Source: Streptosporangium carneum (GTDB taxonomy: Bacteria > Actinomycetota > Actinomycetes > Streptosporangiales > Streptosporangiaceae). From it: a DNA stretch of 64,000 bases. Position 1 is the stretch's first letter, and every line of letters starts with the position of its first letter. This document shows positions 24,098-46,665 of this stretch, piece after piece. Location: assembly GCF_027922005.1 (NCBI RefSeq), contig NZ_BSEV01000009.1, positions 208,860-272,859 of the forward strand. Reading direction: 5' to 3'. Position numbers and translations under genes: made by a program. Below the pieces are notes generated by a model. That model was not told the origin of the DNA. It searched no databases and worked only from the letters and a program-made list of their open reading frames with translations.

Positions 24098-24871
24098 TCA
24101 GAACCAGCCGCGGTGCTGGGCCATCGAGTGGAGACCGGCGCGAAGCGACTGCTCCACCTGCCCCGGGTGGTCGTTGTAGCGGACCGTGAACCGGTTGTAG
24201 GTGTCGTGGCTGGAGCTCAGGAAGCCGCCGCGCTTGTCGGCCTCCAGGATGACGTCCATCGACTGCGGGCCCGAGATGAAGGTCAGTTCCAGCTCGCTGA
24301 AGTGCCGGCCGTACTCGTGGCCCGCGTAGTACTCGATCTCCTGGAAGAACGGCATCCGGGAACCGCGCAGCGTGCCGCGCTCAAGGTCGGCCTTCTTGAA
24401 GCGGAAGCCCATGTTGTCCAGCGCGCCCAGCACGTGGTCCTGGGCGGGCAGCGGGTTGACGAACAGCGGGTCGAGGTCGCCCTTGTCGAGGGCCCCGGCC
24501 AGGGACAACTCGGTGGAGACGCCCAGCTGCATGCCGCGCAGCGGGTGGCCGCCGATGGCGCTGATCGGGGTCTCCCACGGCACGGGGATCTCGAAGGGGG
24601 CCGTCTGCGGGGCGCCCGCCGCGAGGTGGAAGGGGCCGGTGATCTGCTGGCGCAGGAAGCTGTAGGTCGACCTGTACTCGTTGTCGCCGCTCTCGACCTC
24701 GACGACCGCGGTGAAGTCGATGAAGATGCCCTCCACCTTGTAGTCGGAGCCGCCGCCGCGGAAGTTGACCTGTCCGCGCAGGATCTCGCCGGGGCGGACA
24801 TTGGAGTTCTGCAGCACCGTGTCGACCTCGACACCGGCGCCGAAGGCGGCCATGAGTTTACGGAACACCAT
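24098..24871 (-). CDS. spo0M: Spo0M-family sporulation-control (arrestin-like) protein
   Basis: A 257-residue cytoplasmic protein. Residues 1-140 form the arrestin-like beta-sandwich (GAGVEVDTVLQNSNVRPGEI, VNFRGGGSDYKVEGIFIDF). The C-terminal half (FSELELTFISGPQSMDVILE) ends in a helix-rich FTVRYNDHPGQVEQSLRAGL typical of bacterial Spo0M. ATG 24871 with AGGAG at 6 nt is preferred over a longer frame from 24910. Spo0M affects sporulation in Bacillus and is membrane- or cytoskeleton-associated. It is the last gene of an apparent operon with two SPFH proteins, 25 nt behind the second. Confidence 0.85.
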   Translation of the reverse strand: MVFRKLMAAFGAGVEVDTVLQNSNVRPGEILRGQVNFRGGGSDYKVEGIFIDFTAVVEVESGDNEYRSTYSFLRQQITGPFHLAAGAPQTAPFEIPVPWETPISAIGGHPLRGMQLGVSTELSLAGALDKGDLDPLFVNPLPAQDHVLGALDNMGFRFKKADLERGTLRGSRMPFFQEIEYYAGHEYGRHFSELELTFISGPQSMDVILEADKRGGFLSSSHDTYNRFTVRYNDHPGQVEQSLRAGLHSMAQHRGWF

Positions 24872-24896
24872 TGGGGACTCCTGGAGTTGAGAGATT

Positions 24897-26144: not shown

Positions 26145-26145
26145 C

Positions 26146-27816
26146 TCAGACGTCTTCCTGCGCGACGGGTGCGGCCGTTCCCGCGGGTTCCGCGGGTCGG
26201 ATGGTCCTGGTGGCCGAGGGGAGGCCGGCGACCGGGGCGTCCTGCCGGCCCCGTCCGGTCTCCGCGGTCTCGCCGCTGTCCGCGACGGGGTTGAGCAGGG
26301 CGGAGATCTCGGCCTCCCGGCCCTCGACCCGCCTGCCGATCTCGGTGATCCTGGCCCTGATCGCCGCCATGTCCGACTCGGAGAACAGCTGTGTCTCACG
26401 GCTGCCGACGAGCTGCCTGGCCAGGGCGAGCAGGTCGATGTCCGTGCTCTCGCCGACCTGCACCACGCGGGGCAGATGGGCGGCCACGGCCTCGAGCTTG
26501 TCGAGCAGGTCCTGCTGGAAGCGGTAGTCCAGGATCTCCGGCGCCTCGGCCGCGCTCAGCGCCCTGATGTCCAGAGCCTGGGCCTCCAGCAGCGCCGCGT
26601 TGGCCTTCGCGGTCGACTCCGCCTCGACCAGCCGCTGGCTCGCCTGGGCCTTGGCCTGGTGGGAGGCGCGCTCCAGCGCCGTGTCCATCCGCGCCTGGTA
26701 TCCGGCGATCTCGGCGTGGATGGCCGACAGCTGCTCCTGCAGCCCGGCGAGCTCCTTGACCAGGTCTCCCTCGTTCTGCTCCTTGCGCAGCAGCAACTCG
26801 TACTCGTAGGTGTACGCCTCCTTGGCGACCCGGATCATCTCCGGCGCGGCCAGGTCCATCCGGTACTCCTGGCTGGACGGCTCCGCGTGGGTGATGTTCA
26901 CGTCGGTGAGCCGTACCGCGGGCAGGAACTGCTGGTTGAGGCTGTCCAGCATGCCGAGGGTGCTCTCGCCGACCAGGTCGTAGATGTCCTCGGCGCGCTG
27001 GGCGTAGATGAGGGAGCGGGTCACCTCGCTGATCGCGTTCTGCAGCTTGGCCTGGAAACCGCTGACCGAGCCGAGCACGAAGATGAACTCCGCCGGGTCC
27101 TCGATCCGGAACTGCAGGAACAGGTCCACGCTGGCCTTGACGCCCTGCTGGGTCGGGGCTTCGCGGATGGGCGCGTTGAAGGGGTACTCGCGGGTGGTGT
27201 TGACGATGTAGCTGACCCGCTTCCACGGGTTCAGCAGCGTCACCCGCCCGGGCTCCGCGATCTGCACGAGCTTGCCGAACTTGGTGATCAGCGCCTTGCA
27301 GCCCTCCGGCACCATGACCACGCTCCGCCGCCACCACAGGAACGCCGCGGCCAGCACCAGAACGGCCCAGTAGTGCGGCCCGAAGAGCACCCGCGCGCTC
27401 TCGGGCAGGCCCGTGGCGACCAGGCCGACCAGGCCCAGTCCCGCCAGCACGACCAGGGGGACGACGATCCGCGCCGTGGTGCCCTTGGGGATCACCACGG
27501 GGGAGATGACGTGGACCGCCTCGCCGTTCTGGCCGTCACCGGTGAAACTGCGGTTGACGATCTCCCCGGCCTCGTTCAGCGAGGCGCTACGGGCCTCGAT
27601 GAGCGTGCCGACGGACACGCCCTGCTCGCGTGCGGCCAGGAAGTCCGCGGGGTTGAGCGCGAACCCCTTCTCACCCACCTGACCGGACACCTGATTGGCG
27701 ATCTGACCGGCGACCTGCCCAGCGACCTGTCCGGCGATCTGGCGTAGATCGCCGCCCTGGCCGTACGCCTGGGCGGCGGCCATCGCCGACTGGATGGCCT
27801 CTCTTGGGCGGGACAT
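26146..27816 (-). CDS. SPFH/Band-7 domain membrane protein with GQVA repeat N-terminus (first of a pair)
   Basis: A 556-residue relative of the next gene. The N-terminus has a short repeat (IAGQVAGQVAGQIANQVSGQ, about 27-46). Two hydrophobic segments (about 113-160) precede the SPFH domain (VVMVPEGCKALITKFGKLVQ onward), a coiled coil with KAQASQRLVEAESTAKANAA, and a disordered Pro/Ala tail. ATG 27816 has GGAGG 4 nt upstream; GTG 27819 would touch that site. First gene of the SPFH-SPFH-spo0M operon, transcribed away from uvrB; a BldD-like box lies 40 bp upstream. Confidence 0.8.
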   Translation of the reverse strand: MSRPREAIQSAMAAAQAYGQGGDLRQIAGQVAGQVAGQIANQVSGQVGEKGFALNPADFLAAREQGVSVGTLIEARSASLNEAGEIVNRSFTGDGQNGEAVHVISPVVIPKGTTARIVVPLVVLAGLGLVGLVATGLPESARVLFGPHYWAVLVLAAAFLWWRRSVVMVPEGCKALITKFGKLVQIAEPGRVTLLNPWKRVSYIVNTTREYPFNAPIREAPTQQGVKASVDLFLQFRIEDPAEFIFVLGSVSGFQAKLQNAISEVTRSLIYAQRAEDIYDLVGESTLGMLDSLNQQFLPAVRLTDVNITHAEPSSQEYRMDLAAPEMIRVAKEAYTYEYELLLRKEQNEGDLVKELAGLQEQLSAIHAEIAGYQARMDTALERASHQAKAQASQRLVEAESTAKANAALLEAQALDIRALSAAEAPEILDYRFQQDLLDKLEAVAAHLPRVVQVGESTDIDLLALARQLVGSRETQLFSESDMAAIRARITEIGRRVEGREAEISALLNPVADSGETAETGRGRQDAPVAGLPSATRTIRPAEPAGTAAPVAQEDV

Positions 27817-30345: not shown

Positions 30346-33300
30346 TCACCCGGTGGGGCCGTCCGGCTCCAGTTCGGCCAGCGCCTCCGCCACCAGGTCT
30401 TCCAGCGCCAGCGCCAGCGTCTCCACGGTGGCGTTGGCGAACAGCGTCCGGATCGGCACCTCCACGCCGGTCTCCGCCCGTAGCCGCGACACCAGCCGCA
30501 CGGCCAGCAGCGAGTGACCGCCCAGGGCGAAGAAGTCGTCCAGCGCGCCCACCCGCTCCAGCCCGAGCACCTCGGCCCAGACCTCCGCGACGAGTTCCTC
30601 GGTGTCGGTCCTGGGCGGGACGTGCCCGGCGCCGGCCTGCGGGCCGGGAGCCGGGAGCGCGGCGACGTCGACCTTGCCGGAGACGGTGAGCGGCAGGGTG
30701 TCGAGCCACACCCACGCGTCGGGCACCAGATGCCGGGGCAGGACGGAGGACAGGTGTGCGCGCAGTTCCTCGGCCGTCCCGCCGCCCACGACGTAGGCGG
30801 CCAGCACGTCGCCCCGCGCCACCACGGCCGCGCGGGACACCTTGGGATGGGCGAGCAGCCGTGTCTCGATCTCGCCGGGCTCGATCCGGTGCCCCCGGAC
30901 CTTCACCTGCGCGTCGAGCCGGCCCAGGAACTCGATCCGCCCGTCGGGTCGCAGGCGGGCGCGGTCGCCGCTGCGGTAGAGCCGGGACCCGGGCGGTCCC
31001 GAAGGGTCGGGGAGGAAGCGCTCGGCGGTCTGGCCCGGCCGCCGGTGGTAGCCCAGGGTGATCCCGGGGCCGCCGAGGCACAGCTCACCCGGGGCGCCCG
31101 GCGGGACCGGCCGCCCTGCGGGGTCCAGGATCCACGCCGTGGCACCGCCGATCGGGCGGCCGATGGGCGGCGTCTCGCCGTCCGTTCCGGCGGCGTCCCC
31201 CATGGCGGCGTTCTCCCTGGCCGAGCCGGTCGCGCCCGCCCCGGTCAGCTCGGCCGCCGTGGCGATGACGGTCGCCTCGGTCGGCCCGTAGGTGTTCACC
31301 AGCCGTACCCGGTCGCCGAACCGCTCCCGCCAGCGGGCGACGTGCGTCCCGTGCACCTGCTCCCCGCCGAGGACGACCAGTCGCAGCGACGCGGGCCAGG
31401 CCACCTCGTCGATCGTCTCGACGAGCCGGTGCCAGTAGGCGGTGGGCAGGTCCAGCACCGTGATTTCGTTCCCCCGGGGGGAGGCCAGCAGGTCGGGCAG
31501 GGTCGCGGCCCCGTCCGGCAGCATCACCACGCACGCCCCGGCGGCGAGCGCGGGATAGATCTCCTCGGCGTGGGTGTCGAAGCTCAGCGAGGCGAACTGC
31601 ACCACGCGGTCACCGGGGCCCAGGCCGTAGTGCTCGCGCATCCACGAGACCCGCGCGGCCAGGCCGCCGTGCGTGGCGACCACGCCCTTGGGGACCCCGG
31701 TGGAGCCCGAGGTGTAGATCAGGTAGGCGGCCTCTCCGGGCATGGGGACGCGACCGACGCCGGGGCCGTTCTCGCCGCCGCGGCCCTCCGCCCCGGCCTC
31801 GGCACCGGTTCCCCCGCCGAGCTCCCCGGTCTCCGCCTCGGTTTCCGCTTCAGCCTCGGGTTTCGCTCCGGTGCCGTTCTCCGCCCCGGTCTCCGCTCCG
31901 GCCTCGCTCTCCGTTCCGGCCCCGGTCTCCGCGCCGGTGTCGTCCTCCGTCCCGGCCCACGCTCCGGTCGCGGAACCGCCGTCACCGGCGTCGTCCAGGA
32001 CGACCGTCGGCACGCCGGGCGGAAGCCGTACGGCGTGTCCGGCGGTGGTCACCACGGCCGCCGCGCCGCTGTCGCCGACCAGGAACGCCAGCCGTTCGGC
32101 AGGGTATGCCGGGTCCAGCGGCAGGTAGGCGGCTCCGGCCCGCCACACGGCCAGCAGCGCGGGGACGGTGTCGGCGGTCCGGCCGAGGCAGACGCCCACC
32201 ACGTCGCCGGCGCTCACCCCGCGCTCCCGCAGGAGGGCCGCCAGGGCGGCGACGCGCGCGTCCAGGCCGGCGTAGCTCAGCGTTGACCCGCCGCACTCCA
32301 CCGCCGTCGCGCCGGGATGGAGTCGTACGGCCCGCGCCACCTCCTCGGGCACGCTCACCGTCCCGGCGGGACCGCCGTCGGCCGCGCGGGCGAGCAGGGC
32401 CTCGTCCTCGGCGGTCAGCACCGGCAGCGCCGAGACCGGCGTGTCCGCGAGGGACGGCAGGGCCCGCAGCAGGACCTCGAGACGGCCGGCCATCGCCGCG
32501 ACCGTGGCGGCGGTGAACAGGCCGGTGTCGTAGCCGAAGACCAGGCTCAGGCTGCCGGGACCGCGCCACGCCTCCAGCATCAGGTCGAACTTGGCCTGCG
32601 CGTACCCGTGCTCGAACGGCTCCGCGCTCAGCCCGCCGAACCGTCCGCCGGGGCCGGTGTCCGCGTCCTGGCTGTGCAGGATCATCATCGTCTGGAACAG
32701 CGGGGTCCTGGTCGGGTCGCGTTCGATCTCCAGCGCGGGCAGCAGCCGCTCGAACGGCACCTCCTGGTGCTCCATCGCGCCCAGCACGGTCGTCGCGGTC
32801 CGGGCGAGCAGGTCGCCGAAGGACGGGTCGCCGGAGAGGTCGGCGCGGAGCACGAGCGTGTTGGTGAAGTAGCCGACGACGGGCTCGAGCTCGACCCGGT
32901 CGCGGCCCGCGGTGGGGGAGCCCACCGCGAAGTCGTGCTGTCCCGAGTGGCGCGACAGCAGCACCTGGTAGGCGGCGAGCAACAGCATGAACAGGGTCGC
33001 GCCGCGCGAGCGGGCCAGTTCCTCCAGCCGGGCGGCGAGGTCGCCGGGGATCCGGAGCGGGTGGAAGGCGCCCCCGTGACCGGCCCCGGCCGACCGGGGC
33101 CGGTCGGTGGGCAGGTCCAGGGCGGGCACGCCGGCGAGCCGGTCCCGCCAGTAGGCCAGCGACTCCTCCCCGGCACCCAGCGCCTCCCGCCGCCGCTGCC
33201 ACAGCGCGAAGTCGCCGTACTGGACGGGCGGCTCGGGCAGACCCGCGTCCGTCCCCCGCACCCGCGCGTCGTAGAGCAGGGTCAGCTCCTCGAACATCAC

Positions 33301-36300
33301 GTTGAGCGACCAGCCGTCGCCCAGGATGTGGTGGACCACCCCGCACAGCACATGGTCCCCTGCGCCGAGCGTGAGAAGCGTCCAGCGCAGGGGCGGCGCC
33401 GCCTCCAGGTCCAGGGGGGCGTTGACCCGCGCGGCCGTCGCGGCGCGGGCTTCGGCCTCGCGCCGGTCGGCGGGCAGGTGCGACAGGTCCAGCTCCTCCA
33501 GCGGCACCGGGCCGGGGGGCTCGACCACGGTGCGCGGCAGGCCGTCCTCGTGCGGGAACCGGGTGCGCAGGCTCTCGTGCCGCGCGGCCAGGACGCCCAG
33601 AGCGCCGCGCAGCGCCTCGCGGTCGAGGGGGCCGCGCAGCCGCCGCACGAGGTACATGCTGTAGGAGGCGTCGGCCGGGTCGAGCCGGTGCAGGAACCAC
33701 AGGCGTTCCTGCGCGGCCGACAGCGGCACGACGGCGCCGGGCTCGCGGCGGCGCAGCGGCACGGCCCGCCGCCCGGTGAGCGTCTCGAGGACGGCGGCCA
33801 GGTCGGCCACGGCCGGGCGCAGGAACAGCTCGCGGACCGGCAGGTCGACGCCGAGGGCGTCGCCGAGGCGGGCCACCGTCTTGATGGCGAGCAGCGAGTG
33901 ACCGCCCAGGGTGAAGAAGTCGTCGAGCGCGTCGACGTCGTTCCGCCCGAGCACCTCGGCGAAGGTCGAGGCGACCAGCCGCTCGGCCGGCGTGCGGGGC
34001 GGGGTCGCGGCCCGCTCCCGCCGCGACGGGCCCGGGGCGGGCAGGGCGCGGCGGTCGATCTTGCCGTTGGGGGTCAGCGGCAGCGAGTCCAGCGTCACGA
34101 AGACGGTGGGCGTCATCCAGGACGGCAGCCGCTCGGCGACGGCGGCGCGCAGGTCCTCGGGGGCCGCGTCGCCGACGACGTAGGCGACCAGCAGCTCGTC
34201 ACGGACGGCCACCACGGCCTGGCGCACGCCGGGGTGCTCCTCGACGACGCTCTCGACCTCCCCCAGCTCGATGCGGTGGCCGCGGAGTTTGACCTGGTTG
34301 TCCGAACGGCCGAGGTACTCCAGGGTTCCGTCGGGGTGCCGCCGCACGACGTCGCCGGTCCGGTACAGCCGGGCGCCCGGCGGGCCGAACGGGTCGGGCA
34401 CGAACCGGTCGGCGGTCAGGCCGGGGCGGCGCAGGTAGCCGTCGGCGAGTCCGTCGCCCCCGATGAGCAGCTCACCGGGGGCTCCGGCCGGGGCGAGCTC
34501 GGCGTTGCGGCCCATGACGTGGACCCGGGTGTTGGCGATGGGGCGCCCGATGCGGACCCGGGTGGGGTTCTCCGGGACGTCCCAGGCGGTGGACCAGATG
34601 GTCGTCTCGGTCGGGCCGTACACGTTGATCAGGCGGCGGACCCGGGCGCGCAGCCGTACGGCCTGCGCGAGCGGGAGCGCCTCGCCGCCGACCAGGGCGG
34701 TCAGCCGCTCGTCGTCGAAACCCGCGTCGAGCAGCGGCCACCAGCCCGACGGGGTGGCCTGGACGTGGGTGACGCCGGTGTCGCGGATGAGGCGGGCCAG
34801 CCGGGCGCCGTCCCTGGCGGTCTCGCCGTCGGCGACGACCACGGTGCCGCCGGTGACCAGCGGCAGGTAGAGCTCCAGCGCGGAGATGTCGAAGGACAGT
34901 GAGGTGAGGGCGAGCCAGACCTCGTCGCGGCCCGTCCCGGGAGGAGCGGCGGGAGCGGCGTGTCCAGCGAGGCCGGGACGGTCCTCGTGGCCGGGGTGGT
35001 CCCCGGAGGCGGGACGGTCGCCGGAGGCGGGGAGGTCCCCGTGGCCGGGACGGTCGCCGGGGGCAGGGGTCCCGGGGTCGGCGTCGAGCAGGTCCCGCAT
35101 CGCGACCAGGAAGTTGACCAGCGCGCCGTTGGGCACGACGACGCCCTTCGGCCTGCCGGTGGAACCGGAGGTGTAGAGCACGTACGCGGGGTCGGCCGCC
35201 CGCCGCGCCCTCGCGGGGAATCCCTCCGGAGGCTCGGCGGCGGCGGTCTCCTGATCGACGTCCCCGGCGCCGCCCGGGGCGTCGACCAGGATCACCCGGG
35301 CCCGTCCCGCGGGCAGGTGCCCGGCCAGGGAGCCGTGGGTCAGCAGCAACGCGGGGTCGGCGTCCTGCAGGACCAGCGCGACGCGGGCCGGGGGGTAGTC
35401 GGCGTCGACCGGCAGGTAGGCGGCTCCGGTCTTCATGACCGCCAGCAGGCCGACCACCATGTCGGCCGACCTGGGCAGACTGACCGCCACCAGCTCGCCG
35501 AGGCCCGCGCCGCCCGCGCGCAGACGCGCGGCCAGCCGTTCGGCGGCGGCGTCCAACTCGGCGTAGCGCAGGACGGTGTCCCCGGCGACCACGGCGGGCG
35601 CGTCCGGCGTGGCGCGGGCCCGCTCCTCGAACATCGTCACCATGGCGGGCACGGCGGGAAGCGGCCGGCCGGTCCGGTTGAGGTCCTCGACCAGGACGCG
35701 CCGCTCCTCGCCGCGCGGGGCGAGCAGGTGCGACAGACGCGCCTCCGGCTCCTCCACGAGGCGTTCGAGCAACGTCTGGTAGTCGCGGGCGTACCCGGCG
35801 ACGGTCTCCGCGTCGAACAGGTCGGTGCTGTAGGTGAGCATCATCCGGTGGTCGTCGCCGGCGTTGAAGATCTGCAGCGCCAGGTCGTACGGCGAGGCGT
35901 GGAAACCCGAGTCGGCCATCTCCACGCGGACGCCGGGCAGCGCGAGGTCGGCGTCCCCCATGCTGTGCAGCACGAAGACGGTCTGGAACAGCGGGTTGCG
36001 GCTCAGGTCGCGTGCCGCGTCCGAGCCCTCCAGGGCCCGCTCGGCCGGCACCCGGCGGTGCTGGAAGGCGCCCATCACCTTCCGCCTGGTCTGCCGGAGC
36101 AGGGCCCGGAAGGCCGGGTCGCCCGACAGGTCGCCGCGGAAGACGAGAGTGGTGACGAAGTGGCCGATGACGGCTTCGTACTCCACGCGGTCCCGGGAGG
36201 CCGCCACCGAGCCGACGGACACGTCGTCCGCTCCGCTCCGCCCGGCCAGCAGGAGCTGGTAGGCGGCCAGGAACACCATGAACGGCGTGCAGCGCTCGGC

Positions 36301-37038
36301 GCGGGCGAAACGCTGCACCCCCTCGACGAGATCCCGCGGCAGGGGGACCTGGTGGGAGGCGCCCCGCGTGCCGCGGACCGCGGGGCGGGGCCGGTCGGTG
36401 GGCAGTTCCAGCGGGGCGGCGCCGGTGAGCTCCCGGCGCCAGTAGGCGAGGCTCTCGGCCGCCTCGTCGCCGTCGAGCATCAGGCGCTGCTCGGCGACGA
36501 AGTCGCCGTACCCGCAGGGCGGCGGGGGCAGCGGGGACGGCTTGCCGTCGAGGAAGGCGGTGTACAGGGCGGTGAGCTCGCCGATCAGGACGCCGAAGGA
36601 CCAGCCGTCGCAGACGATGTGGTGGGCGACGACGCACAGCACGTGGTCGCGGGGGCCGAAGGCGATCAGGCGGACCCGCAGCAGCGGCCCCTCCGCCAGG
36701 TCGAAGGAGCCGTTGGTCCATTCGGACAGCAGGGTCGCGGCCTCCTCGTCCCACCGGCCGGCCGGGATCGCGGTGCGGTCCACGACCTCCAGCCGGATCC
36801 GGCCCGGCGGATCGACGACCTGGACCGGCAGGCCGTCATGGGAGGGGAAGCGGGAGCGGAGCTGCTCGTGCCGGGCGACGACCTCGCCGAGCGCGCGGTC
36901 GAGCAGCCCGGCGTCGACCTCGCCGTACAGGCGGGAGGCGCTGAGGACGTTGTGGGAGGCGTCACCGGGATCGAGCCGGTCGAGGAACCACATGTGTTCC
37001 TGGCCGAATGAGAGGGACTGGTCCGGCATCGCGTTCAT
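30346..37038 (-). CDS. Two-module nonribosomal peptide synthetase (C-A-T-C-A-T)
   Basis: A 2230-residue enzyme. Module 1: condensation domain with HHIVCDG (about 139), adenylation domain (about 465-960; YTSGSTGRPKG, NVYGPTETT, YRTGD) and carrier LGGHSLLAI (about 1046). Module 2: HHILGDG (about 1234), adenylation (YTSGSTGVPKG about 1777; NTYGPTEAT) and carrier LGGHSLLAV (about 2174). Read against GrsA, the A1 pocket is DILQVGVIWK, close to the glycine code; A2 is DTEDLGTVIK, whose acidic residues suggest a basic side chain. There is no epimerase, thioesterase or reductase, so the chain must pass to another enzyme, presumably the divergent C-A-T-R protein. The leading C domain implies an acyl starter. 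ATG 37038 has AGGAG upstream. No MbtH gene is nearby. Confidence 0.93.
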   Translation of the reverse strand: MNAMPDQSLSFGQEHMWFLDRLDPGDASHNVLSASRLYGEVDAGLLDRALGEVVARHEQLRSRFPSHDGLPVQVVDPPGRIRLEVVDRTAIPAGRWDEEAATLLSEWTNGSFDLAEGPLLRVRLIAFGPRDHVLCVVAHHIVCDGWSFGVLIGELTALYTAFLDGKPSPLPPPPCGYGDFVAEQRLMLDGDEAAESLAYWRRELTGAAPLELPTDRPRPAVRGTRGASHQVPLPRDLVEGVQRFARAERCTPFMVFLAAYQLLLAGRSGADDVSVGSVAASRDRVEYEAVIGHFVTTLVFRGDLSGDPAFRALLRQTRRKVMGAFQHRRVPAERALEGSDAARDLSRNPLFQTVFVLHSMGDADLALPGVRVEMADSGFHASPYDLALQIFNAGDDHRMMLTYSTDLFDAETVAGYARDYQTLLERLVEEPEARLSHLLAPRGEERRVLVEDLNRTGRPLPAVPAMVTMFEERARATPDAPAVVAGDTVLRYAELDAAAERLAARLRAGGAGLGELVAVSLPRSADMVVGLLAVMKTGAAYLPVDADYPPARVALVLQDADPALLLTHGSLAGHLPAGRARVILVDAPGGAGDVDQETAAAEPPEGFPARARRAADPAYVLYTSGSTGRPKGVVVPNGALVNFLVAMRDLLDADPGTPAPGDRPGHGDLPASGDRPASGDHPGHEDRPGLAGHAAPAAPPGTGRDEVWLALTSLSFDISALELYLPLVTGGTVVVADGETARDGARLARLIRDTGVTHVQATPSGWWPLLDAGFDDERLTALVGGEALPLAQAVRLRARVRRLINVYGPTETTIWSTAWDVPENPTRVRIGRPIANTRVHVMGRNAELAPAGAPGELLIGGDGLADGYLRRPGLTADRFVPDPFGPPGARLYRTGDVVRRHPDGTLEYLGRSDNQVKLRGHRIELGEVESVVEEHPGVRQAVVAVRDELLVAYVVGDAAPEDLRAAVAERLPSWMTPTVFVTLDSLPLTPNGKIDRRALPAPGPSRRERAATPPRTPAERLVASTFAEVLGRNDVDALDDFFTLGGHSLLAIKTVARLGDALGVDLPVRELFLRPAVADLAAVLETLTGRRAVPLRRREPGAVVPLSAAQERLWFLHRLDPADASYSMYLVRRLRGPLDREALRGALGVLAARHESLRTRFPHEDGLPRTVVEPPGPVPLEELDLSHLPADRREAEARAATAARVNAPLDLEAAPPLRWTLLTLGAGDHVLCGVVHHILGDGWSLNVMFEELTLLYDARVRGTDAGLPEPPVQYGDFALWQRRREALGAGEESLAYWRDRLAGVPALDLPTDRPRSAGAGHGGAFHPLRIPGDLAARLEELARSRGATLFMLLLAAYQVLLSRHSGQHDFAVGSPTAGRDRVELEPVVGYFTNTLVLRADLSGDPSFGDLLARTATTVLGAMEHQEVPFERLLPALEIERDPTRTPLFQTMMILHSQDADTGPGGRFGGLSAEPFEHGYAQAKFDLMLEAWRGPGSLSLVFGYDTGLFTAATVAAMAGRLEVLLRALPSLADTPVSALPVLTAEDEALLARAADGGPAGTVSVPEEVARAVRLHPGATAVECGGSTLSYAGLDARVAALAALLRERGVSAGDVVGVCLGRTADTVPALLAVWRAGAAYLPLDPAYPAERLAFLVGDSGAAAVVTTAGHAVRLPPGVPTVVLDDAGDGGSATGAWAGTEDDTGAETGAGTESEAGAETGAENGTGAKPEAEAETEAETGELGGGTGAEAGAEGRGGENGPGVGRVPMPGEAAYLIYTSGSTGVPKGVVATHGGLAARVSWMREHYGLGPGDRVVQFASLSFDTHAEEIYPALAAGACVVMLPDGAATLPDLLASPRGNEITVLDLPTAYWHRLVETIDEVAWPASLRLVVLGGEQVHGTHVARWRERFGDRVRLVNTYGPTEATVIATAAELTGAGATGSARENAAMGDAAGTDGETPPIGRPIGGATAWILDPAGRPVPPGAPGELCLGGPGITLGYHRRPGQTAERFLPDPSGPPGSRLYRSGDRARLRPDGRIEFLGRLDAQVKVRGHRIEPGEIETRLLAHPKVSRAAVVARGDVLAAYVVGGGTAEELRAHLSSVLPRHLVPDAWVWLDTLPLTVSGKVDVAALPAPGPQAGAGHVPPRTDTEELVAEVWAEVLGLERVGALDDFFALGGHSLLAVRLVSRLRAETGVEVPIRTLFANATVETLALALEDLVAEALAELEPDGPTG
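31745..31985. repeat. Low-complexity insertion in NRPS adenylation domain A2
   Basis: About 80 residues made of Glu/Thr/Gly/Ala repeats (AETGA-type pentapeptides) inserted just before the nucleotide-binding YTSGSTG loop of A2. It keeps frame and has no counterpart in typical A domains. Confidence 0.75.
34930..35090. repeat. GDxPxx hexapeptide repeats inserted in adenylation domain A1
   Basis: About 50 extra residues between core motifs A3 and A4 of A1, including five tandem hexapeptides (GDRPGH, GDLPAS, GDRPAS, GDHPGH, EDRPGL) encoded by imperfect 18-bp DNA repeats. Confidence 0.75.
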
Positions 37039-37218
37039 GGGGAGGTTCTCCTGAAAGGCCCCGCGCCCGTCCCGGACCGCGAGGGGCGGACGGCGGATCG
37101 CGGGACGATCCCTGCTTCGGTCGTTTTATGCCACGTCGGACGAGCACGCGGCGATCAACAGATGAAACACTCCCGACGAGGATGATCCTGGACGTCGTCT
37201 CATCACGTCAACAGGTGA

Positions 37219-37240
37219 TTTTGTGGAGCGTTCCACAAAA
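37219..37240. promoter_or_regulatory. 22-bp inverted repeat in the divergent NRPS spacer
   Basis: TTTTGTGGA and TCCACAAAA are exact reverse complements around GCGT. The size and central GCGTTC look like an operator for a LacI- or TetR-type dimer. As RNA it would be a hairpin ending directly at the GGAGG before the small ORF at 37251. The 425-bp spacer 37039-37463 also holds a promoter (37334-37362) and a second GC-centred imperfect palindrome (TGGGGGCGCTCCCG near 37365). Confidence 0.55.
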
Positions 37241-37250
37241 GGAGGCCAGA

Positions 37251-37310
37251 ATGGGTGAAATTCGGAAAATAGCAGCTCAGTGCCTTGGGGGAGGAGTGGA
37301 GGGCAAGTAG
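37251..37310 (+). CDS. Possible 19-residue peptide between the divergent NRPS genes
   Basis: ATG 37251 to TAG 37310 would encode MGEIRKIAAQCLGGGVEGK. A strong Shine-Dalgarno (AAAAGGAGG) lies 5-6 nt upstream, directly after the 22-bp palindrome. Third positions are only about half G/C, unlike the strongly G/C-ending neighbours, so it is either not coding or under unusual constraint. A leader peptide, signalling peptide or plain chance are all possible. I recognise no family. Confidence 0.3.
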   Translation: MGEIRKIAAQCLGGGVEGK

Positions 37311-37333
37311 AAATCCCAGCTAATGAGCAAATG

Positions 37334-37362
37334 TTGACGCATATAGCCATAAACCCTAGCCT
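37334..37362 (+). promoter_or_regulatory. Promoter of the C-A-T-R NRPS and exporter operon
   Basis: -35 TTGACG, exactly 17 bp, -10 TAGCCT. Expected start of transcription near 37369, giving a leader of about 95 nt before ATG 37464. The best sigma-70-type promoter I see in the window. Confidence 0.65.
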
Positions 37363-37463
37363 TTGGGGGCGCTCCCGCATTCTTGTTCTCTTTTCCCTGC
37401 TCACGCCAGCCTGGTGTGAAAGCCATCAGGCCGATCGGCAGGCCGTACGAGGAGGAGGGTCGG

Positions 37464-40400
37464 ATGGCGGGCGAAGCGAGGCCGAGACCCCGGATGGACC
37501 GCGACACGCTGCGACGACTCGCCGCGCTGAGGTCGGCGGAGCGGACCGTTCCCGTCCGCGACCGTGCGAGGCCGGTGCCGCTCACCCCCTCCCAGGAACG
37601 CCTGTGGTTCCTCGACCGGGCGGGGTTCGACGGCTCCACCTACCTGCTCTGGGCCGGGCAGCGCCTGAAGGGCCCACTGGACGCGGAGCTCGCCGACACG
37701 GCGCTGAAGACGGTCGTCGCGCGGCACGAGGCGCTGCGCACCGGGATCGTGGAGACACCCGGCGGGCCTGTGCAGGTGGTGCACGACCGGATCGTCCCCC
37801 AGCCCCCGGCGCACGAGGGGGCGCTCCCGACGGCGCGGGGGCGGACGCCGTGCGATCCGCCCGGCGAGGCGGACCCCGGCCCCCTGCTGCCGCTGGTGGA
37901 CCTGCGCGACGCGCCCCCCGGCACGGCGGAGGCCGTAACCCGGGCGCTGACGGCGGCCCCCATGGACCTCGCCCGGCCGCCGCTGCTGCGCGCCGCGCTG
38001 CTGCGGCTCGCCCCCGACGATCACGTCCTGCTGCTGTGCATCCACCACATCGTCTCGGACGGCCCCTCCACCGAGGTCGTCGTCCAGGAGCTGTTCGCCG
38101 CCTACCGGGCACTGCTGGCAGGGGAGGACCCGGTCGCGGCGCTGCCCGAGGCGGGCGCCCAGTTCCCCGACTACGCCGTGTGGCTCGCCGACCGGGGGAC
38201 CGGGCGGTCCGAGGCGGCCCGCGCCCACTGGCGCGAGCATCTGCACGGCGCCCCCGCCCTGCTGGGCCTGCCGGCCGACCGGCCGCGTCCGGCCACCCCC
38301 ACCCTCCGCGGCGACCGCTGTGTCGCCGAGCTCGAGCCCGGCCTGTCGGAGGCGCTGCGCGACCTCGCGCGACGCGAGCAGTGCACCCTGTTCATGGTCT
38401 TCCTGGCGGCGTTCGCCGCGGTGCTGGCCCGGGTGTGCGACGAGGACGACGTCGTCGTCGGCACCCCCGTGGCCAACCGCGACCTCCAGCAGTTGCAGCG
38501 GTCGGTCGGCATGTACGTCAACACGCTGGCGCTGCGCGCGGACCTGAGCGGCGACCCGACGCTGGCAGGCCTGCTGGACCAGGTCAAGGAGACCGCCGTC
38601 GCGGGACTGGAGCACCAGATGCTCCCCTTCGACCAGGTGGTCGACCTCCTGCGGGTGCCCCGCGACCTCAGCTACAACCCGGTCTTCCAGGCCATGCTGG
38701 TGGTCGAGCCGGGCGCCCCGCCGGTCTGGGAGCCCGCGCCCGGCCTGACCGCCACCGGCTGGTCGCTGCCCACCCCCGGCGCCAGGTTCGACCTGACGCT
38801 GTGCGTCGTCACCGGGGAGCGGATCGGCCTGAACCTCGACTACGCCGCGGACCTGTTCGACGCCGCGACCGCCGAGCGGCTGACCGGCCACCTGGTGACC
38901 GTGCTGACCGCCATGGCCGAACGGCTCGCCACCCCCGTCTGGGAGGTGGACCTCGCCCCCCGCCCGGCGGACGGGATCCGGGGCGGGACGGGGAGCCGGG
39001 TCCCCGAGGTCCGAGGCGGACCGGACGGCTGGGCGGACGACGCCCCGGCGCGTACGGGGGCAGGAAGGACGGAGGCCGGGGAGGCAGAGGCCGGGCACAC
39101 GGGCGCCGGGGCGTCGGAGGCCGGAAGGACGGAGGCCGGGCACACGGGCGCCGGAGAGACGGAGGCCGGAAAAAAGACGGAGGCCGGGCACACGGGCGCC
39201 GGGGAGACGGAATCCGCCGGACGGCCGGTGCACGAGCTCGTCGCCGCGCAGGCGGCGCGGACGCCGGACGCCCCGGCGATCCTGTCCCGGGGCCGGACGC
39301 TCACCTACGGGGAGCTGGACCGGCGGGCCAACCACCTCGCCCACCTGCTGGCGGGCGTCCCCGTCGCGGGGCGGCCGGTCGGCGTGCTCGTCTCCGACGT
39401 GCCCGACGCCGTGGTGGCGATCCTCGCCGCGCTCAAGGCGGGCGGCTCCTACCTTCCGCTGGACCCCGCCCACCCGCCGGTCAGGCTCGCCGGCGTCCTG
39501 GACGAGACGGACGTCCCGGTCCTGCTGGCCTCCGAGGGGACCGCGGTCGACCCCGCACTGCTCGGCCACGGCTCCCGCACGCTCCTGCGGACCGGCCCCG
39601 GCGTCGCCGACACGCCGCCGCCGGTCCCCCCGGCCCGCCCTGCGGACCTCGCCTACACCATCTTCACGTCCGGCTCGACCGGCAGGCCCAAGGGGGTGAT
39701 GATCACCCACGGCACCCTCTCCCGGTTCAACCGCTCGTTCGTCGACGCCCACCGCTTCGGCCCGGCGGACCGCGTCCTCATGCTGCCACCGCTGACCTTC
39801 GACGCCTCCGTCGGCGACCTGTTCCCGGCGCTCACCTCGGGCGCGTCCCTGGCGCTGCACCCCGAGCCCGCCCTGCTCGACGGGCCCGAGCTGGTCCGCT
39901 TCTGCGCCGAGCTGGAGGTCACGGCCGTCGACGCCCCGGCCGCGCTCTGGCGGCGCTGGGGCGACGACCTGGCGGGGCACGCCGTGCCGGAGGACTGGCC
40001 GGTCCGGCTCATGATGATCGGCGGCGAGCGCGCCTCGACGGCGTCGGCCCGCGCGTGGGCGCGGGCCACCGGCGGCCGGATCGAGCTGGTCAACCACTAC
40101 GGCCCCACCGAGGCCACCGTCTGCGCGACCACCCATCACACGGTGGAGGGACCCGAGGACGCCGCCCACCTGCCCATCGGCCTCCCCCTGGACCACGTGC
40201 GCGCCTACGTGCTCGACCGGCGCGGCAGGCCGTCCCCGGCCGGCACGCCCGGGGAGCTCCACCTCGGGGGAGAGTGCCTGGCCCGGGGGTACGCGGGACA
40301 GGCGGGGCTGACCGCGGCCAGGTTCGTCCCCGACCCCCACTCGCCGACGCCCGGCGCCCGCATGTACCGCACCGGCGACCTGGCCCGCCTGCGCGCGGAC

Positions 40401-42401
40401 GGGACGCTGGAGTTCCTCGGCCGGGCCGACGGCCAGGTGAAGATCAACGGTTATCTGGTCGAACCCGCCGAGGTCGAGGCGGCCCTGTCGGAGCACCCGG
40501 AGGTCCTGGACTGCGCCGTCACCACCCGTCCCGACGCGGCGGGCCACCACCGTCTGATCGCCTACGTCGTCACGGGAGCCGGGGAGCCCGGACACGGGGG
40601 AGACGGGATGTCCGCATCCTCCGGCGGCGACGGTGGCGGTGACGGCCGCGACGGGACCGGAGCCGGGATCGGCGACCGTGCCCGGACGGGGGACGGCTCC
40701 GGCGGCCGCGACGCCGGGTCCCCGGTGGCCGGGCTCCGGCGCTGGCTGCGCGGGCGTCTCCCCGACTACCTGGTGCCCGCCGTGTTCGTCCCGCTGGAGC
40801 GGATCCCGCACACCGCGCACGGCAAGACCGACCTGGCGGCGCTGCCCGACCCGGCCGACCTCCCCGGGCCGTCCTCCCACGAGCCGCCGACCGGCCCGAC
40901 GGAGACCGCGCTGGCCGAGATCTGGGAGCGGGTCCTCGACGTCAAGCGGGTCGGCAGGTCCGACAACTTCTTCACCGCCGGGGGGCACTCCCTGCGGGTC
41001 GCCGAGGTCATCGCCGAGATCGACCGCTCGCTGGGCGTGCGGCTGCCGATGCGGGCCCTGTTCGAGGCCGCCGACCTGGCGGAGCTGGCCGAGCTGACCG
41101 ACGCGGCGGCCGCGGAGTCGGGAGCCGCGGGAACGGCAGGGGCGGGGGACGACGACGCCGACCTGCGGGCCGAGGCCGTCCTGCCCGCCGACGTCGTCGT
41201 GCGCGCCCGCGTGTCCGGGACCGGGGCCGGCGAGGGAGACGCGCCCGCCGCGCGCGCCCGGGGCGCCGAACGCGAGCCGTGGAGGAGCGGGCCGCCCGGC
41301 ACGGTCCTGCTGACCGGCGCCACCGGTTTCCTCGGCGCCCACCTGACCGCCGAGCTGCTGGCCCGCACCCCGGCCAGGCTGGTCTGCCTGGTCCGCGCCG
41401 ACTCGGCCGCCCACGCCCTGCGCCGCGTCCGCGACAACCTCACCCGGCACGGCCTGGACCCGGCCGTCCTGGGCGACCGGGTCACCGGCCTGCCCGGCGA
41501 CCTGGCCGCGCCGCGCCTGGGGCTGGACGACTCCGTGCTCGCCGAGCTGGCCGCCACGGTGGACGTCGTCTGCCACAACGGCGGGCTGGTCAACTTCGCG
41601 CAGCCGTACGCGATGCTCCGCCCGGCCAACGTGGCGGGCACCCTGGAGGTGCTCCGCCTGGCGGCGGCCGGCGGCGGTCTGCCCGTGCACCACGTCTCGA
41701 CCCTGGGCGTCTACCTGGGGTCGGCGTACCGGGATCTGCGCGTGACCGAGGCGGACCCGCCGGACGACCCCGACGGCCTGTACGGCGGCTACAACCGGAG
41801 CAAGTGGGTGGCCGACAGCCTGGTCCGGCAGGCGAGGTCGCGGGGGATCCCGGTCACCGTCCACCGGCCCGCCCGCGTCACCGGCGACAGCCGCAGCGGG
41901 GTGGGCGTCCCCGAGGACTACTTCACCCGCCTGCTCGTCACCTTCGCGCAGGTCGGCCTGGTGCCTGCCCTGTCCTACGAGGAGGACCTCTTCCCCGTCG
42001 ACCTCCTCGCGGCGGGCGTCGCCTCGGCCGTGGCCGAGCCCCCGGCCGGGCAGGGGGAGGACATCCACTACTTCAACCCGGCGACGATGGGCTACGACCG
42101 GATCGCCGAGGCGCTGCGCGAGCACGGCCATCCCGCGCGGACGGTCCCGTGGGAGGAGTGGCGCGACGAGGTCGCCGGACGGCTCGCCGCCGGGGACGAC
42201 CTGGCGATCGGCCCGTTCGCGGGCGTCGTCGCCGGGCCGGAGCCGACCTTCCCCCGTCCCCTGTTCGACTGCCGGGCGACGCACGGGCGCCTGGCGGCCC
42301 TCGGAATCGTCTGCCCGCCGGCGGACTCCGAGCTGCTCGGCCGGTACCTGGGCGCCCTGGTCGCCTCCGGCCACCTCCCATCCCCCCAAGGAGCGTCATG
42401 A
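37464..42401 (+). CDS. One-module NRPS with terminal thioester reductase (C-A-T-R)
   Basis: A 1645-residue enzyme. C domain with HHIVSDG (about 193); a repetitive linker (about 525-590); A domain (FTSGSTGRPKG about 735, NHYGPTEAT, YRTGD) whose pocket reads DAGDIGHVCK, matching no code I know; a Gly/Asp-rich insertion (about 1040-1088); carrier AGGHSLRVA (about 1175); and a reductase (from about 1278) with the NADPH motif LLTGATGFLGAHL and catalytic YNRSK. Such reductases release the chain as an aldehyde or alcohol, so this is the terminal module. ATG 37464 has GGAGG 5-7 nt upstream. The stop overlaps the exporter start (ATGA). Divergent from the two-module NRPS. Confidence 0.93.
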   Translation: MAGEARPRPRMDRDTLRRLAALRSAERTVPVRDRARPVPLTPSQERLWFLDRAGFDGSTYLLWAGQRLKGPLDAELADTALKTVVARHEALRTGIVETPGGPVQVVHDRIVPQPPAHEGALPTARGRTPCDPPGEADPGPLLPLVDLRDAPPGTAEAVTRALTAAPMDLARPPLLRAALLRLAPDDHVLLLCIHHIVSDGPSTEVVVQELFAAYRALLAGEDPVAALPEAGAQFPDYAVWLADRGTGRSEAARAHWREHLHGAPALLGLPADRPRPATPTLRGDRCVAELEPGLSEALRDLARREQCTLFMVFLAAFAAVLARVCDEDDVVVGTPVANRDLQQLQRSVGMYVNTLALRADLSGDPTLAGLLDQVKETAVAGLEHQMLPFDQVVDLLRVPRDLSYNPVFQAMLVVEPGAPPVWEPAPGLTATGWSLPTPGARFDLTLCVVTGERIGLNLDYAADLFDAATAERLTGHLVTVLTAMAERLATPVWEVDLAPRPADGIRGGTGSRVPEVRGGPDGWADDAPARTGAGRTEAGEAEAGHTGAGASEAGRTEAGHTGAGETEAGKKTEAGHTGAGETESAGRPVHELVAAQAARTPDAPAILSRGRTLTYGELDRRANHLAHLLAGVPVAGRPVGVLVSDVPDAVVAILAALKAGGSYLPLDPAHPPVRLAGVLDETDVPVLLASEGTAVDPALLGHGSRTLLRTGPGVADTPPPVPPARPADLAYTIFTSGSTGRPKGVMITHGTLSRFNRSFVDAHRFGPADRVLMLPPLTFDASVGDLFPALTSGASLALHPEPALLDGPELVRFCAELEVTAVDAPAALWRRWGDDLAGHAVPEDWPVRLMMIGGERASTASARAWARATGGRIELVNHYGPTEATVCATTHHTVEGPEDAAHLPIGLPLDHVRAYVLDRRGRPSPAGTPGELHLGGECLARGYAGQAGLTAARFVPDPHSPTPGARMYRTGDLARLRADGTLEFLGRADGQVKINGYLVEPAEVEAALSEHPEVLDCAVTTRPDAAGHHRLIAYVVTGAGEPGHGGDGMSASSGGDGGGDGRDGTGAGIGDRARTGDGSGGRDAGSPVAGLRRWLRGRLPDYLVPAVFVPLERIPHTAHGKTDLAALPDPADLPGPSSHEPPTGPTETALAEIWERVLDVKRVGRSDNFFTAGGHSLRVAEVIAEIDRSLGVRLPMRALFEAADLAELAELTDAAAAESGAAGTAGAGDDDADLRAEAVLPADVVVRARVSGTGAGEGDAPAARARGAEREPWRSGPPGTVLLTGATGFLGAHLTAELLARTPARLVCLVRADSAAHALRRVRDNLTRHGLDPAVLGDRVTGLPGDLAAPRLGLDDSVLAELAATVDVVCHNGGLVNFAQPYAMLRPANVAGTLEVLRLAAAGGGLPVHHVSTLGVYLGSAYRDLRVTEADPPDDPDGLYGGYNRSKWVADSLVRQARSRGIPVTVHRPARVTGDSRSGVGVPEDYFTRLLVTFAQVGLVPALSYEEDLFPVDLLAAGVASAVAEPPAGQGEDIHYFNPATMGYDRIAEALREHGHPARTVPWEEWRDEVAGRLAAGDDLAIGPFAGVVAGPEPTFPRPLFDCRATHGRLAALGIVCPPADSELLGRYLGALVASGHLPSPQGAS
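39040..39220. repeat. Tandem repeats in the C-A linker of the C-A-T-R NRPS
   Basis: The linker encodes repeated TEAGHTGAGE-type decapeptides, with about 30-bp DNA repeats built on ACGGAGGCCGGGCACACGGG. A run of six A (39170-39175) interrupts one copy and adds a Lys pair. Confidence 0.8.
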
Positions 42402-43882
42402 CGGAAACCCACGACCGCCGGGAGCTGGTCAGGTTCGGTGTCGTGTGGCTGGCGTCGCTGGCCTCCGGCATCGGCTCCAGCCTCACCTGGTTCGTGCTGG
42501 GGGTGTGGGTCTTCCAGCAGACCGGGTCCGCCAGCCAGTACGCCTTCGTCATGCTCAGCGGCATGCTGCCCAGCGTCCTGGTCGGCCCCTTCGCCGGGGT
42601 GGTGATCGACCGGTTCAACCGCCGCACGGTCATGGTGATCACCGACACGGTCGTGGCGCTGTCCACGGCCGGGATCGCGCTGCTGCTCGCCACCGGCGGG
42701 CTCCAGGTCTGGCACATCTACGTGGCCGCCGCGATCGGCTCGACCAGCGGGGTCTTCCACACCACCGCCTACAGCGCGATCATTCCGCTGCTCACCCCGA
42801 AACGGCACCTGGGCAGGGTCAACGGCCTGATGCAGACCGCCGGGGCGCTGCACATCGCCGCGCCGCTGGCGGCCGGCGCCCTGATCGGCGCGGTGGGCAT
42901 GGCCGGGGTGCTCGTCATCGACCTGACGACCTTCTTCGTCGCGGTCGGCACGCTGCTGCTCATGCGCCTGCCCGCGACGGTGCTGATCCCCCAGGAGCGG
43001 GCCGAGCCGCCGTCGTTCCGCTCCGACCTGGCGTACGGCTGGCGCTACCTCCGCGCCCGCCGCGGCCTGTTCAACCTCGCGCTCGTGCTGACCGCCTACA
43101 ACTTCGCGTTCGGCGTGGCCGGGGTGCTGGTCCAGCCGCTGATCCTCTCCTTCGCCTCGGCCGCCACGCTGGGCGTGCTGATGTTCGCCGGGGGATCGGG
43201 CCTGTTCGTGGGCGGTCTGGTCATGACCGCCTGGGGCGGCCCCAAGCGGCGGGTGCCCGGGGTGGCGCTGTTCGCCGCGCTGGGCGGGGTGGCGCTGATC
43301 CTGCACACGCTGCGGCCCTCGGCCCTGCTGGTGGGCGCGGCGGCGGCGGCGTTCCTGTTCACCCTGCCCGTGGTGCAGGGCAGCGTGGCGACGGTGTTCC
43401 AGACGAAGATCGAGCCGACGGCCCTCGGCCGGGTCATGGGCACCACGCACACGCTGGCCCAGCTCGCGATGCCGATCTCCTACCTGGTGGCGGGGCCGCT
43501 CGCGGAGAGCGTCCTCGGCCCCGCCCTGCGTCCCGGTGGTCCGCTGGCCGGCTCCCTCGGCGCGCTGGTCGGCGTCGGGGAGGAGCGCGGCATCGCGGCG
43601 ATGCTGCTGGCGGCGGGCCTGCTGCTGCTCGCGCTGGCGGCGGTGATGCTGCTCCTCCCGTCGCTGCGCCGGGTGGAGCACGACCTGCCCGACGCGGGGG
43701 ACCAGGACGCCGGCGGGGAGACGGGCGAGGGCGCGGAGCGCGAGGCCGCCCGGAACGGCGGCCCGGGGAACGGCGAGGACGCCGGGGCCCCGGGCGGGGA
43801 CACGGACAGGGAGACGGCCGGGAACACGGACACGGACGGGGACGCGCCCGCGCCCGGCCAGGTCACGGTGCCCGCCCCCTGA
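42398..43882 (+). CDS. MFS exporter coupled to the NRPS
   Basis: A 494-residue major facilitator. About 12 hydrophobic helices span residues 10-420; the motif-A loop is VIDRFNRRTVMVITD, and the overall pattern (FGVVWLASLASGIGSSLTW start, RARRGLFNLALVLTAYNF) is that of the EntS-like group that exports siderophores and peptides. The last 65 residues are a hydrophilic Glu/Gly/Asp/Thr tail like the NRPS insertions. ATG 42398 overlaps the NRPS stop and has AAGGAG upstream, so it is translated together with it. Most likely exports the peptide product. Confidence 0.87.
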   Translation: MTETHDRRELVRFGVVWLASLASGIGSSLTWFVLGVWVFQQTGSASQYAFVMLSGMLPSVLVGPFAGVVIDRFNRRTVMVITDTVVALSTAGIALLLATGGLQVWHIYVAAAIGSTSGVFHTTAYSAIIPLLTPKRHLGRVNGLMQTAGALHIAAPLAAGALIGAVGMAGVLVIDLTTFFVAVGTLLLMRLPATVLIPQERAEPPSFRSDLAYGWRYLRARRGLFNLALVLTAYNFAFGVAGVLVQPLILSFASAATLGVLMFAGGSGLFVGGLVMTAWGGPKRRVPGVALFAALGGVALILHTLRPSALLVGAAAAAFLFTLPVVQGSVATVFQTKIEPTALGRVMGTTHTLAQLAMPISYLVAGPLAESVLGPALRPGGPLAGSLGALVGVGEERGIAAMLLAAGLLLLALAAVMLLLPSLRRVEHDLPDAGDQDAGGETGEGAEREAARNGGPGNGEDAGAPGGDTDRETAGNTDTDGDAPAPGQVTVPAP

Positions 43883-45489: not shown

Positions 45490-46665
45490 CTACTCCGAGA
45501 CGGGGACCCGGAGTATCTCGCCCTTGCCGGGCGCCATGGCCTGGTTGGCCACGTAGACGGCGCCGTCGGGGCCCACGGCCACGCCGAGCGGGGTGACCAG
45601 CGTGCCGGGCTTGAGGAGTTCGGTGCGGGTGCCGTCGCTCTCGATCCGGTAGACGGTGCTCTTGCTCATTCCCTCCGCGGGGAGCGGGCCGACGGAGCCG
45701 AGGACGATCATCCTGCCCTCGGCGTCGAAGGTCACGTCGGCGACCGTGGTGAAGCCCTTCGCGGCGGTGGTGACCTTGCCGTTCTTGAGGCGGAGGACCC
45801 GGGCGGCGCCCTCCGGGTTCGGGAAGCCTCCGTGCTCGGCCACGTAGTAGGCCCCGTCGGGGCCCTTGGCGATGCCCATCGGCACCGACTGCATCGGGAT
45901 CTTGCTGCCCTTGGGCAGCTTGAGCGCGGGGGGAGCCGCCACGGACCTGGCGTGGAGGACGGCCTCGGTGCTGACGCGGCCCTTCTTGTCCACCCGCAGC
46001 ACGGAGTTGCCGCCGGTGTCGGCGACCAGCGCGCCGCCGCCGGGCAGCGGGGCCACGCCGAACGGGTAGGAGTCGACGGCGCTGCCCTTGTCCTTGCGGT
46101 CGGGGTTGTGCTTGGTCTCGTAGGCGACCAGGTCTGCGACGGAGAGCCGCTTGCCCTTCTTGGAGAGCGTCAGCAGCGTGCCCAGCGTCCTGCCCTTGGG
46201 GCCCAGCTTGGCGCGGAAGGCGGTGTCACCGGTGAAGCCGATGGTCACCAGGAGGTCGCCCTTGTCGGTGAGCGCCACGTCGTGCGGTCCGAGCGCGAAC
46301 GGACCGCTGGCCGCGGAGGGCAGGCCGTCGACCAGCACGGAGGTCTTGCCGTCCTTGACGGTGCTGATGCGTCCCGTGAGGCCCAGGCAGATCTTCTCCG
46401 GCTTCTCGCCCTCCTGTGCCGGAGGCGTGGCGCACTTGACCTTGCCGCCGTGGCCTGACTCGGCGACGTACAGCGTGCCGTCGGGGCCGAACGACAGTCC
46501 GCGCGGGCTGTCGAGTCCCTTGGCGACGACCGTGGTCTCGCTGTCGGCCGCGTGCGCTGCGGCGACCTGACCGGTCGCCGCGGCCAGCAGCGCGATCCCC
46601 CCTGTGGCAGCCGCGAGCAGCCGGCGACCGATACGAACTCCGCTCAACGCAATCCCCTTCACCAT
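45490..46665 (-). CDS. Secreted ScyD/ScyE-like beta-propeller protein
   Basis: A protein of about 391 residues with a Sec signal peptide (IGRRLLAAATGGIALLAAAT to AHA) and no lipobox. The mature part has repeated beta-propeller blades: GLDSPRGLSFGPDGTLYVAE, GPHDVALTDKGDLLVTIGFT, GVAPLPGGGALVADTGGNSV, GIAKGPDGAYYVAEHGG and GVAVGPDGAVYVANQ, the NHL/SMP-30-like pattern annotated ScyD/ScyE in actinobacteria. No enzymatic role is established for these. The start is uncertain: ATG 46665 is used; ATG 46674 or TTG 46647 are equally compatible with the signal peptide. Confidence 0.75.
   Translation of the reverse strand: MVKGIALSGVRIGRRLLAAATGGIALLAAATGQVAAAHAADSETTVVAKGLDSPRGLSFGPDGTLYVAESGHGGKVKCATPPAQEGEKPEKICLGLTGRISTVKDGKTSVLVDGLPSAASGPFALGPHDVALTDKGDLLVTIGFTGDTAFRAKLGPKGRTLGTLLTLSKKGKRLSVADLVAYETKHNPDRKDKGSAVDSYPFGVAPLPGGGALVADTGGNSVLRVDKKGRVSTEAVLHARSVAAPPALKLPKGSKIPMQSVPMGIAKGPDGAYYVAEHGGFPNPEGAARVLRLKNGKVTTAAKGFTTVADVTFDAEGRMIVLGSVGPLPAEGMSKSTVYRIESDGTRTELLKPGTLVTPLGVAVGPDGAVYVANQAMAPGKGEILRVPVSE

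Follow-up and report, generated by a model that had tools for sequence, protein, structure and literature searches.

The locus described here lies in a 64-kb stretch of Streptosporangium carneum DNA, hereafter the window (contig NZ_BSEV01000009.1, G000:C9:208860-272859, in a 9.84-Mb genome of 184 contigs). It comprises three genes, 13.5 kb in total: two divergent nonribosomal peptide synthetase (NRPS) genes, NRPS1 and NRPS2, and a gene for a major facilitator superfamily (MFS) exporter. We read it, with a probability of about 60%, as a compact and apparently acquired three-gene line and a mosaic of two lineages, in which a tripeptide would be built by passage of the chain from NRPS1 to NRPS2, released reductively and exported by the MFS protein. 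The locus is a real, complete-looking and unusual combination built of known parts.

Domain organization and genomic setting

The features are given below by window position, with condensation (C), adenylation (A), carrier (T) and reductase (R) domains numbered by module and the basis of each call in parentheses.

30346..37038, minus strand: NRPS1, C-A-T-C-A-T, 2230 residues, without a release domain (Pfam, motifs)
35689..37011, minus strand: C1 domain, HHIVCDG, grouping with C1 of the G083, G235 and G229 bimodules (motif, structure search, trees)
34039..35631, minus strand: A1 domain, pocket DILQLGVIW (pocket letters)
33784..33996, minus strand: T1 carrier domain, FTLGGHS (Pfam, motif)
32395..33732, minus strand: C2 domain, HHILGDG (Pfam, motif, tree)
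30655..32337, minus strand: A2 domain, acidic pocket DTEDVGTVI (pocket letters)
30409..30594, minus strand: T2 carrier domain, FALGGHS (Pfam, motif)
37039..37493, no strand: region between the divergent genes, GC 0.60, where both promoters are presumed to lie (GC computed)
37494..42401, plus strand: NRPS2, C-A-T-R, 1635 residues (Pfam, motifs)
37575..38963, plus strand: C3 domain, HHIVSDG, grouping with C domains of the L160, L161 and L162 C-A-T-R proteins (motif, trees)
39228..40838, plus strand: A3 domain, pocket DAGDMGHVC, of a type common to the C-A-T-R relatives (pocket letters)
40908..41096, plus strand: T3 carrier domain, FTAGGHS (Pfam, motif)
41301..42374, plus strand: R domain, thioester reductase, GATGFLG and YNRSK (NCBIfam, Protein Data Bank (PDB) match to MxaA 4u7w, motifs)
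42398..43882, plus strand: MFS exporter, 494 residues, overlapping the NRPS2 stop (open reading frame, NCBIfam)

By Pfam, NRPS1 contains Condensation, AMP-binding and carrier domains, two of each by motif, and no thioesterase (TE) or reductase was found in it. NRPS2 contains Condensation, AMP-binding, carrier and NAD_binding_4 (reductase) domains; its likely start is ATG 37494, with TTG 37383 also possible. These assignments bear out a preliminary description of the DNA, which placed a C-A-T-C-A-T synthetase without a release domain opposite a C-A-T-R synthetase and held the catalytic motifs to be intact. Each of the three C domains preserves HHxxxDG, each A domain TSGSTGxPK, YGPTE, YRT/SGD and GKxD, and each carrier GGHS; the R domain has GATGFLG together with YNRSK, the YxxxK site. 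The overlap that it reported between NRPS2 and the exporter is likewise present, the MFS frame starting at 42398 and NRPS2 ending at 42401. Low-complexity stretches rich in Glu, Thr, Gly and Ala occur in the translations inside A2 (approximately 31770–31990) and in the NRPS2 C-A linker (approximately 39040–39215).

Two absences that had been noted from the letters alone also hold. No thioesterase was found in NRPS1, and relatives' TE, O-methyltransferase, FAD enzyme, DUF6875 and E1/E2 proteins, used as tblastn queries against the 64 kb, gave no match at E ≤ 1e-3. MbtH matches number eight in the genome and none on the window's contig (150 of 188 first-look candidates scored). The contig carries no C domain beyond those of NRPS1 and NRPS2.

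The flanks are housekeeping genes: uvrB, CTP synthase, a XerD-like recombinase, ParA-like, ScpA and ScpB. The three cluster genes sit between uvrB, which is present in 16 of 16 genomes of the genus including this one, and a conserved neighbour, g44002. Fetching the region beside uvrB from eight other genomes of the genus, we found g44002 and DUF4126 next in every case, and NRPS1, NRPS2 and the MFS gene at this junction in none. The uvrB–g44002 spacer measures 89 bp in the closest relative, G010, and 409–3662 bp in the others. With the junction empty in all eight relatives, the three genes have the look of a single insertion, and the locus was apparently acquired. The GC content of the cluster, 74–77% against 69.6% in the rest of the window, says little about its origin, since four other NRPS genes of the genome are similarly GC-rich (73–74%). 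Megablast of the whole cluster against plasmids returned short matches only; no record covered 80% of the query at a single site.

Two synthetase lineages

NRPS1 is 54% and 52% identical over nearly its full length to bimodules of G229 and G235, and 56% identical to one of G083 over residues 16–1688. Its C1 groups with theirs in the C-domain trees (100/100), as does C2 (100/96). Searching 341 genomes of the family with C1, with four candidates scored per genome, gave three rows at 53–55% identity and many general C domains at 45–51%; this search misses relatives, because the paralogues on contigs C5 and C10 of the same genome are absent from its results. The gene that follows the bimodule in G229, G235 and G083 encodes a C-A-T-TE-MFS fusion, and the two further NRPS1-type bimodules of the window's genome, on C10 and C5, each divergently face a gene or operon that encodes such a protein. 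NRPS1 belongs to this lineage of Gly-(basic) bimodules, for which a C-A-T-TE-MFS fusion is the neighbouring partner wherever a partner was seen. A third NRPS1-like bimodule, at L217:5092-11136 on contig C34, differs in its first pocket (DIVQVAGIY), and no partner was identified for it.

NRPSs with an MFS fused after the thioesterase (C-A-T-TE-MFS, about 1800–2300 residues) are common; examples are L200:4383-10163 and L214:1945-7398, both on the minus strand, and L246-L280. A TE-MFS query matched in 13 of 16 genus genomes (E ≤ 1e-100), and bimodules of the NRPS1 type accompany 8 of the 35 genus TE-MFS loci sampled, several of which end early at a locus or contig end. A narrow search of the open-access literature for NRPS-MFS fusions in Streptosporangiales found no matching paper, which is not proof of absence.

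For NRPS2 we assembled 27 C-A-T-R loci, of which seven, counting the C5 locus of the same genome, come from the genus and 20 from the family's other genera (27 of 47 non-window rows; five candidates scored per genome). Genus loci L044-L047, whose R domains are weaker (31–42%), were left out. An MFS gene adjoins the C-A-T-R gene at 26 of the 27 loci and, by gene caller, overlaps its stop in 22 of these 26; DUF6875 occurs at 26 loci, and an O-methyltransferase and an FAD enzyme at 25 each. NRPS2 has the A pocket of this cassette (DAGxxGHVC), its C-domain phylogeny and its adjoining MFS gene; the tailoring gene set is missing. The C domain of NRPS2 groups with those of L160, L161 and L162 (97/87), all within a C-A-T-R group of seven rows (100/100), and a second C-domain tree agrees, with supports of 100/99, 93/93 and 98/98, C2 of NRPS1 being the weakest (93/93). 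By domain, the nearest C-A-T-R relatives of NRPS2, among them L160 and L161, are 48–71% identical to it. Among the best 80 of 532 confirmed stretches in genome contigs, the nearest named relative, from Planomonospora, is 53% identical over residues 1–1630. NRPS2 and the MFS gene belong together to a C-A-T-R/MFS lineage in which DUF6875, FAD and O-methyltransferase genes are the usual companions.

Three loci deserve separate mention. The window's own genome holds a second C-A-T-R/MFS/O-methyltransferase/FAD/DUF6875 cluster on contig C5 (L038:8104-18575), whose C-A-T-R protein falls outside the seven-row group. An orphan C-A-T-R gene, L177:4246-8610 on the minus strand, has no MFS or tailoring genes in 19 kb; its genome, G226, also has a full cluster, L170. 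In the cyanobacterium Calothrix sp. PCC 7103 (L094:11908-17947), the gene of a near-full-length C-A-T-R protein at 34% identity precedes a related MFS gene (R 36%, MFS 38%).

Both halves of the cluster thus belong to larger families, and of the loci fetched only the window pairs an NRPS1-type bimodule with an R-type synthetase. The combination resembles a natural swap in which last module, release chemistry and exporter moved together. Taken further, the three Gly-(basic) bimodules of this genome (C5, C10 and the window) might form a small combinatorial set that shares one starter loader and ends in exchangeable exporter-bearing modules (Asp-like-TE-MFS, Ser-TE-MFS and Trp-like-R plus MFS), a swap of terminal module and exporter then yielding acid and aldehyde or alcohol versions of one scaffold; we regard this idea as speculative and improbable.

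Proposed chain transfer, residues and release

Hand-over from NRPS1 to NRPS2, already proposed in the preliminary description, is the best reading because the genes share one insertion and the same module order is collinear in five relatives. At 5 of the 27 C-A-T-R loci, in two genera, a Gly-like module, a DAEDIGTVI module and a DAGxxGHVC-R module follow one another on one strand, on separate genes (L167, L168 and L176 in one genus, L169 and L171 in the other). The dipeptidyl chain of NRPS1 would accordingly be passed to NRPS2 in the order in which these relatives carry their modules.

Several observations weigh against this reading of the locus. L167, L168 and L176 are near-copies from one genus; the substrates assigned to the A domains are predictions from pocket codes; and no loader or tailoring gene of the relatives was matched in the window. 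The remaining points also speak for two separate pathways, with NRPS2 and the MFS protein making an N-acyl amino aldehyde or alcohol alone and NRPS1 passing its chain to a TE-MFS synthetase encoded on C5 or C10. A lone C-A-T-R line is possible because no second NRPS domain was found around L160 (36 kb examined) or L161 (34 kb), two of the three nearest relatives; the 20 kb of the remaining one, L162, end in C- and carrier-like genes. A partner was seen for 13 NRPS1-type bimodules and is TE-MFS in all of them and R in none, a count biased by the retrieval of ten of them with a TE-MFS query, the three orthologues having come through the C1 of NRPS1 itself. NRPS1 also lacks the C-terminal tail of its G229 and G235 orthologues (SDEEA type, with a shorter form in G083), and the genome has two C-A-T-TE-MFS proteins beside NRPS1-type bimodules. 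Both of these proteins, however, already adjoin a bimodule of their own, NRPS1 and NRPS2 share an intergenic region and occupy a junction left empty by the eight relatives examined, and the recurring collinear order joins the corresponding modules. We therefore consider separate pathways unlikely and prefer transfer from NRPS1 to NRPS2.

The A1 pocket, DILQLGVIW, is one that we take to specify Gly, and the acidic A2 pocket, DTEDVGTVI, presumably loads a basic residue. NRPS1 would load and join these two, and the C domain of NRPS2 would add a bulky, probably Trp-like residue selected by A3. Open-access literature yielded nothing relevant on the pocket code letters, and nothing on tryptophanol combined with a reductase domain and an NRPS, neither of which is proof of absence. 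DUF6875 proteins are reported to be haem-binding Trp oxidases (PMC13307353). As a DUF6875 gene adjoins 26 of the 27 C-A-T-R genes of this pocket type, the A3 residue is, by this indirect argument, likely to be Trp or oxidised Trp. DUF6875 itself gave no PDB match at E ≤ 1, and so no link to SfmD by sequence.

How the chain starts is less clearly indicated. The preliminary description suggested an N-acylated or otherwise capped peptide, and such a cap is conceivable. C1 does not resemble the lipo-starter C domain of CDA, which scores 44 bits, and its closest solved structures are Txo2 and Txo1 (265 and 258 bits). Some relatives have an acyl carrier protein or carrier gene with 2-oxoacid-dehydrogenase-like genes upstream. 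E1a/E1b/E2-like genes occur in G229 and on C5, and of the five same-order relatives two have them upstream (L284, checked by Pfam, for L171; L285 for L169). The window, which lacks loader and tailoring genes, could be a reduced line completed in trans by the starter-loader and MbtH genes of C5, perhaps with DUF6875, the FAD enzyme and the O-methyltransferase from that contig's second C-A-T-R cluster. The loader does lie beside the C5 bimodule with MbtH adjoining, and the genome has one DUF6875 gene. Against this, 13 kb of upstream sequence (L281-L283) showed no E1/E2-like gene in the remaining three same-order relatives, the C10 pair is also without a loader in its 35 kb, and the C5 genes are clustered with synthetases of their own and give no evidence of cross-talk. 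We think completion in trans doubtful, somewhat more so than separate pathways.

For the three-gene line, reductive release from the R domain of NRPS2 is supported by sequence, as the earlier interpretation had it. The domain passes the TIGR01746 cut-off (289.4 bits against 213.35), its catalytic motifs are intact, and its nearest solved structure is MxaA (4u7w, E 3.2e-71). The chain would be freed as an aldehyde or an alcohol, and the product of the overlapping MFS gene would export it. The peptide is predicted to join Gly, an Arg/Lys-like residue and a Trp-like residue in that order, to end in an aldehyde or alcohol and perhaps to carry a cap.

The exporter had been labelled EntS-like, which is too specific: EntS is among its weaker matches, at 37 bits against a cut-off of 324, and the best NCBIfam match is TIGR00900, a model of the drug/H+ antiporter type, at 197.7 bits against 319.6. 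That label would fit a siderophore pathway combining an EntS-type exporter with myxochelin-like reductive release, and MxcG is the best NCBIfam match of NRPS2. Its 727.8 bits, however, fall below the equivalog cut-off of 2300, and the 20 flanking proteins scanned by Pfam include no siderophore-type gene. The window holds no iron-box-like site at up to three mismatches to the consensus, a weak test, the chance expectation being zero as well. A siderophore role is very improbable.

If the transfer works, the locus displays a tolerated joint between TE-type and R-type lineages, which would be useful for understanding the evolution of short peptide aldehydes, and at 13.5 kb it is small enough to be tested by expression. 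Elsewhere in the window, a ScyD/ScyE family protein is encoded at 45490-46665 on the minus strand (333 bits, cut-off 80), and a Spo0M gene lies beside two Band_7 genes at 24098-27816 on the minus strand.

Comparison with known systems

The naphthyridinomycin, dnacin and quinocarcin tetrahydroisoquinoline lines share a C-A-T-R terminal synthetase with the window. Naphthyridinomycin-type compounds are described as having a comparable hydroxyethyl loader (NapB/C/D) and a C-A-PCP-RE synthetase (PMC7570522, PMC9268379); this loader is resembled by the E1/E2-like genes of some relatives. The window, in which a search with relatives' E1/E2 proteins gave no loader match, was rejected as a member of the family; it differs further in having no MbtH and no additional C domain on its contig.

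Myxalamid MxaA and myxochelin MxcG have a terminal R domain in common with NRPS2, and MxaA is its best PDB match. The MxcG type differs, NRPS2 scoring far below its cut-off, and no polyketide synthase was among the genes scanned.

Closer at hand is the C-A-T-R/MFS cassette of Streptosporangiaceae, of which L056 (Planomonospora sp. ID82291, NZ_JABTEX010000002.1) is a named member. The cassette relatives carry DUF6875, FAD and O-methyltransferase genes, and the window has none; the A pocket type and the MFS overlap are the same, and against L056/L160 the R domain is 66% and the MFS protein 71% identical. The Gly-(DxEDxGT) bimodule family, in contrast, pairs with C-A-T-TE-MFS at its 13 loci with a seen partner, whereas the terminal module of the window is C-A-T-R with a separate MFS and no loader. 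With this family NRPS1 shares its domain order and its DILQ and DxED pockets, and the locus its divergent layout, as in C5 and C10.

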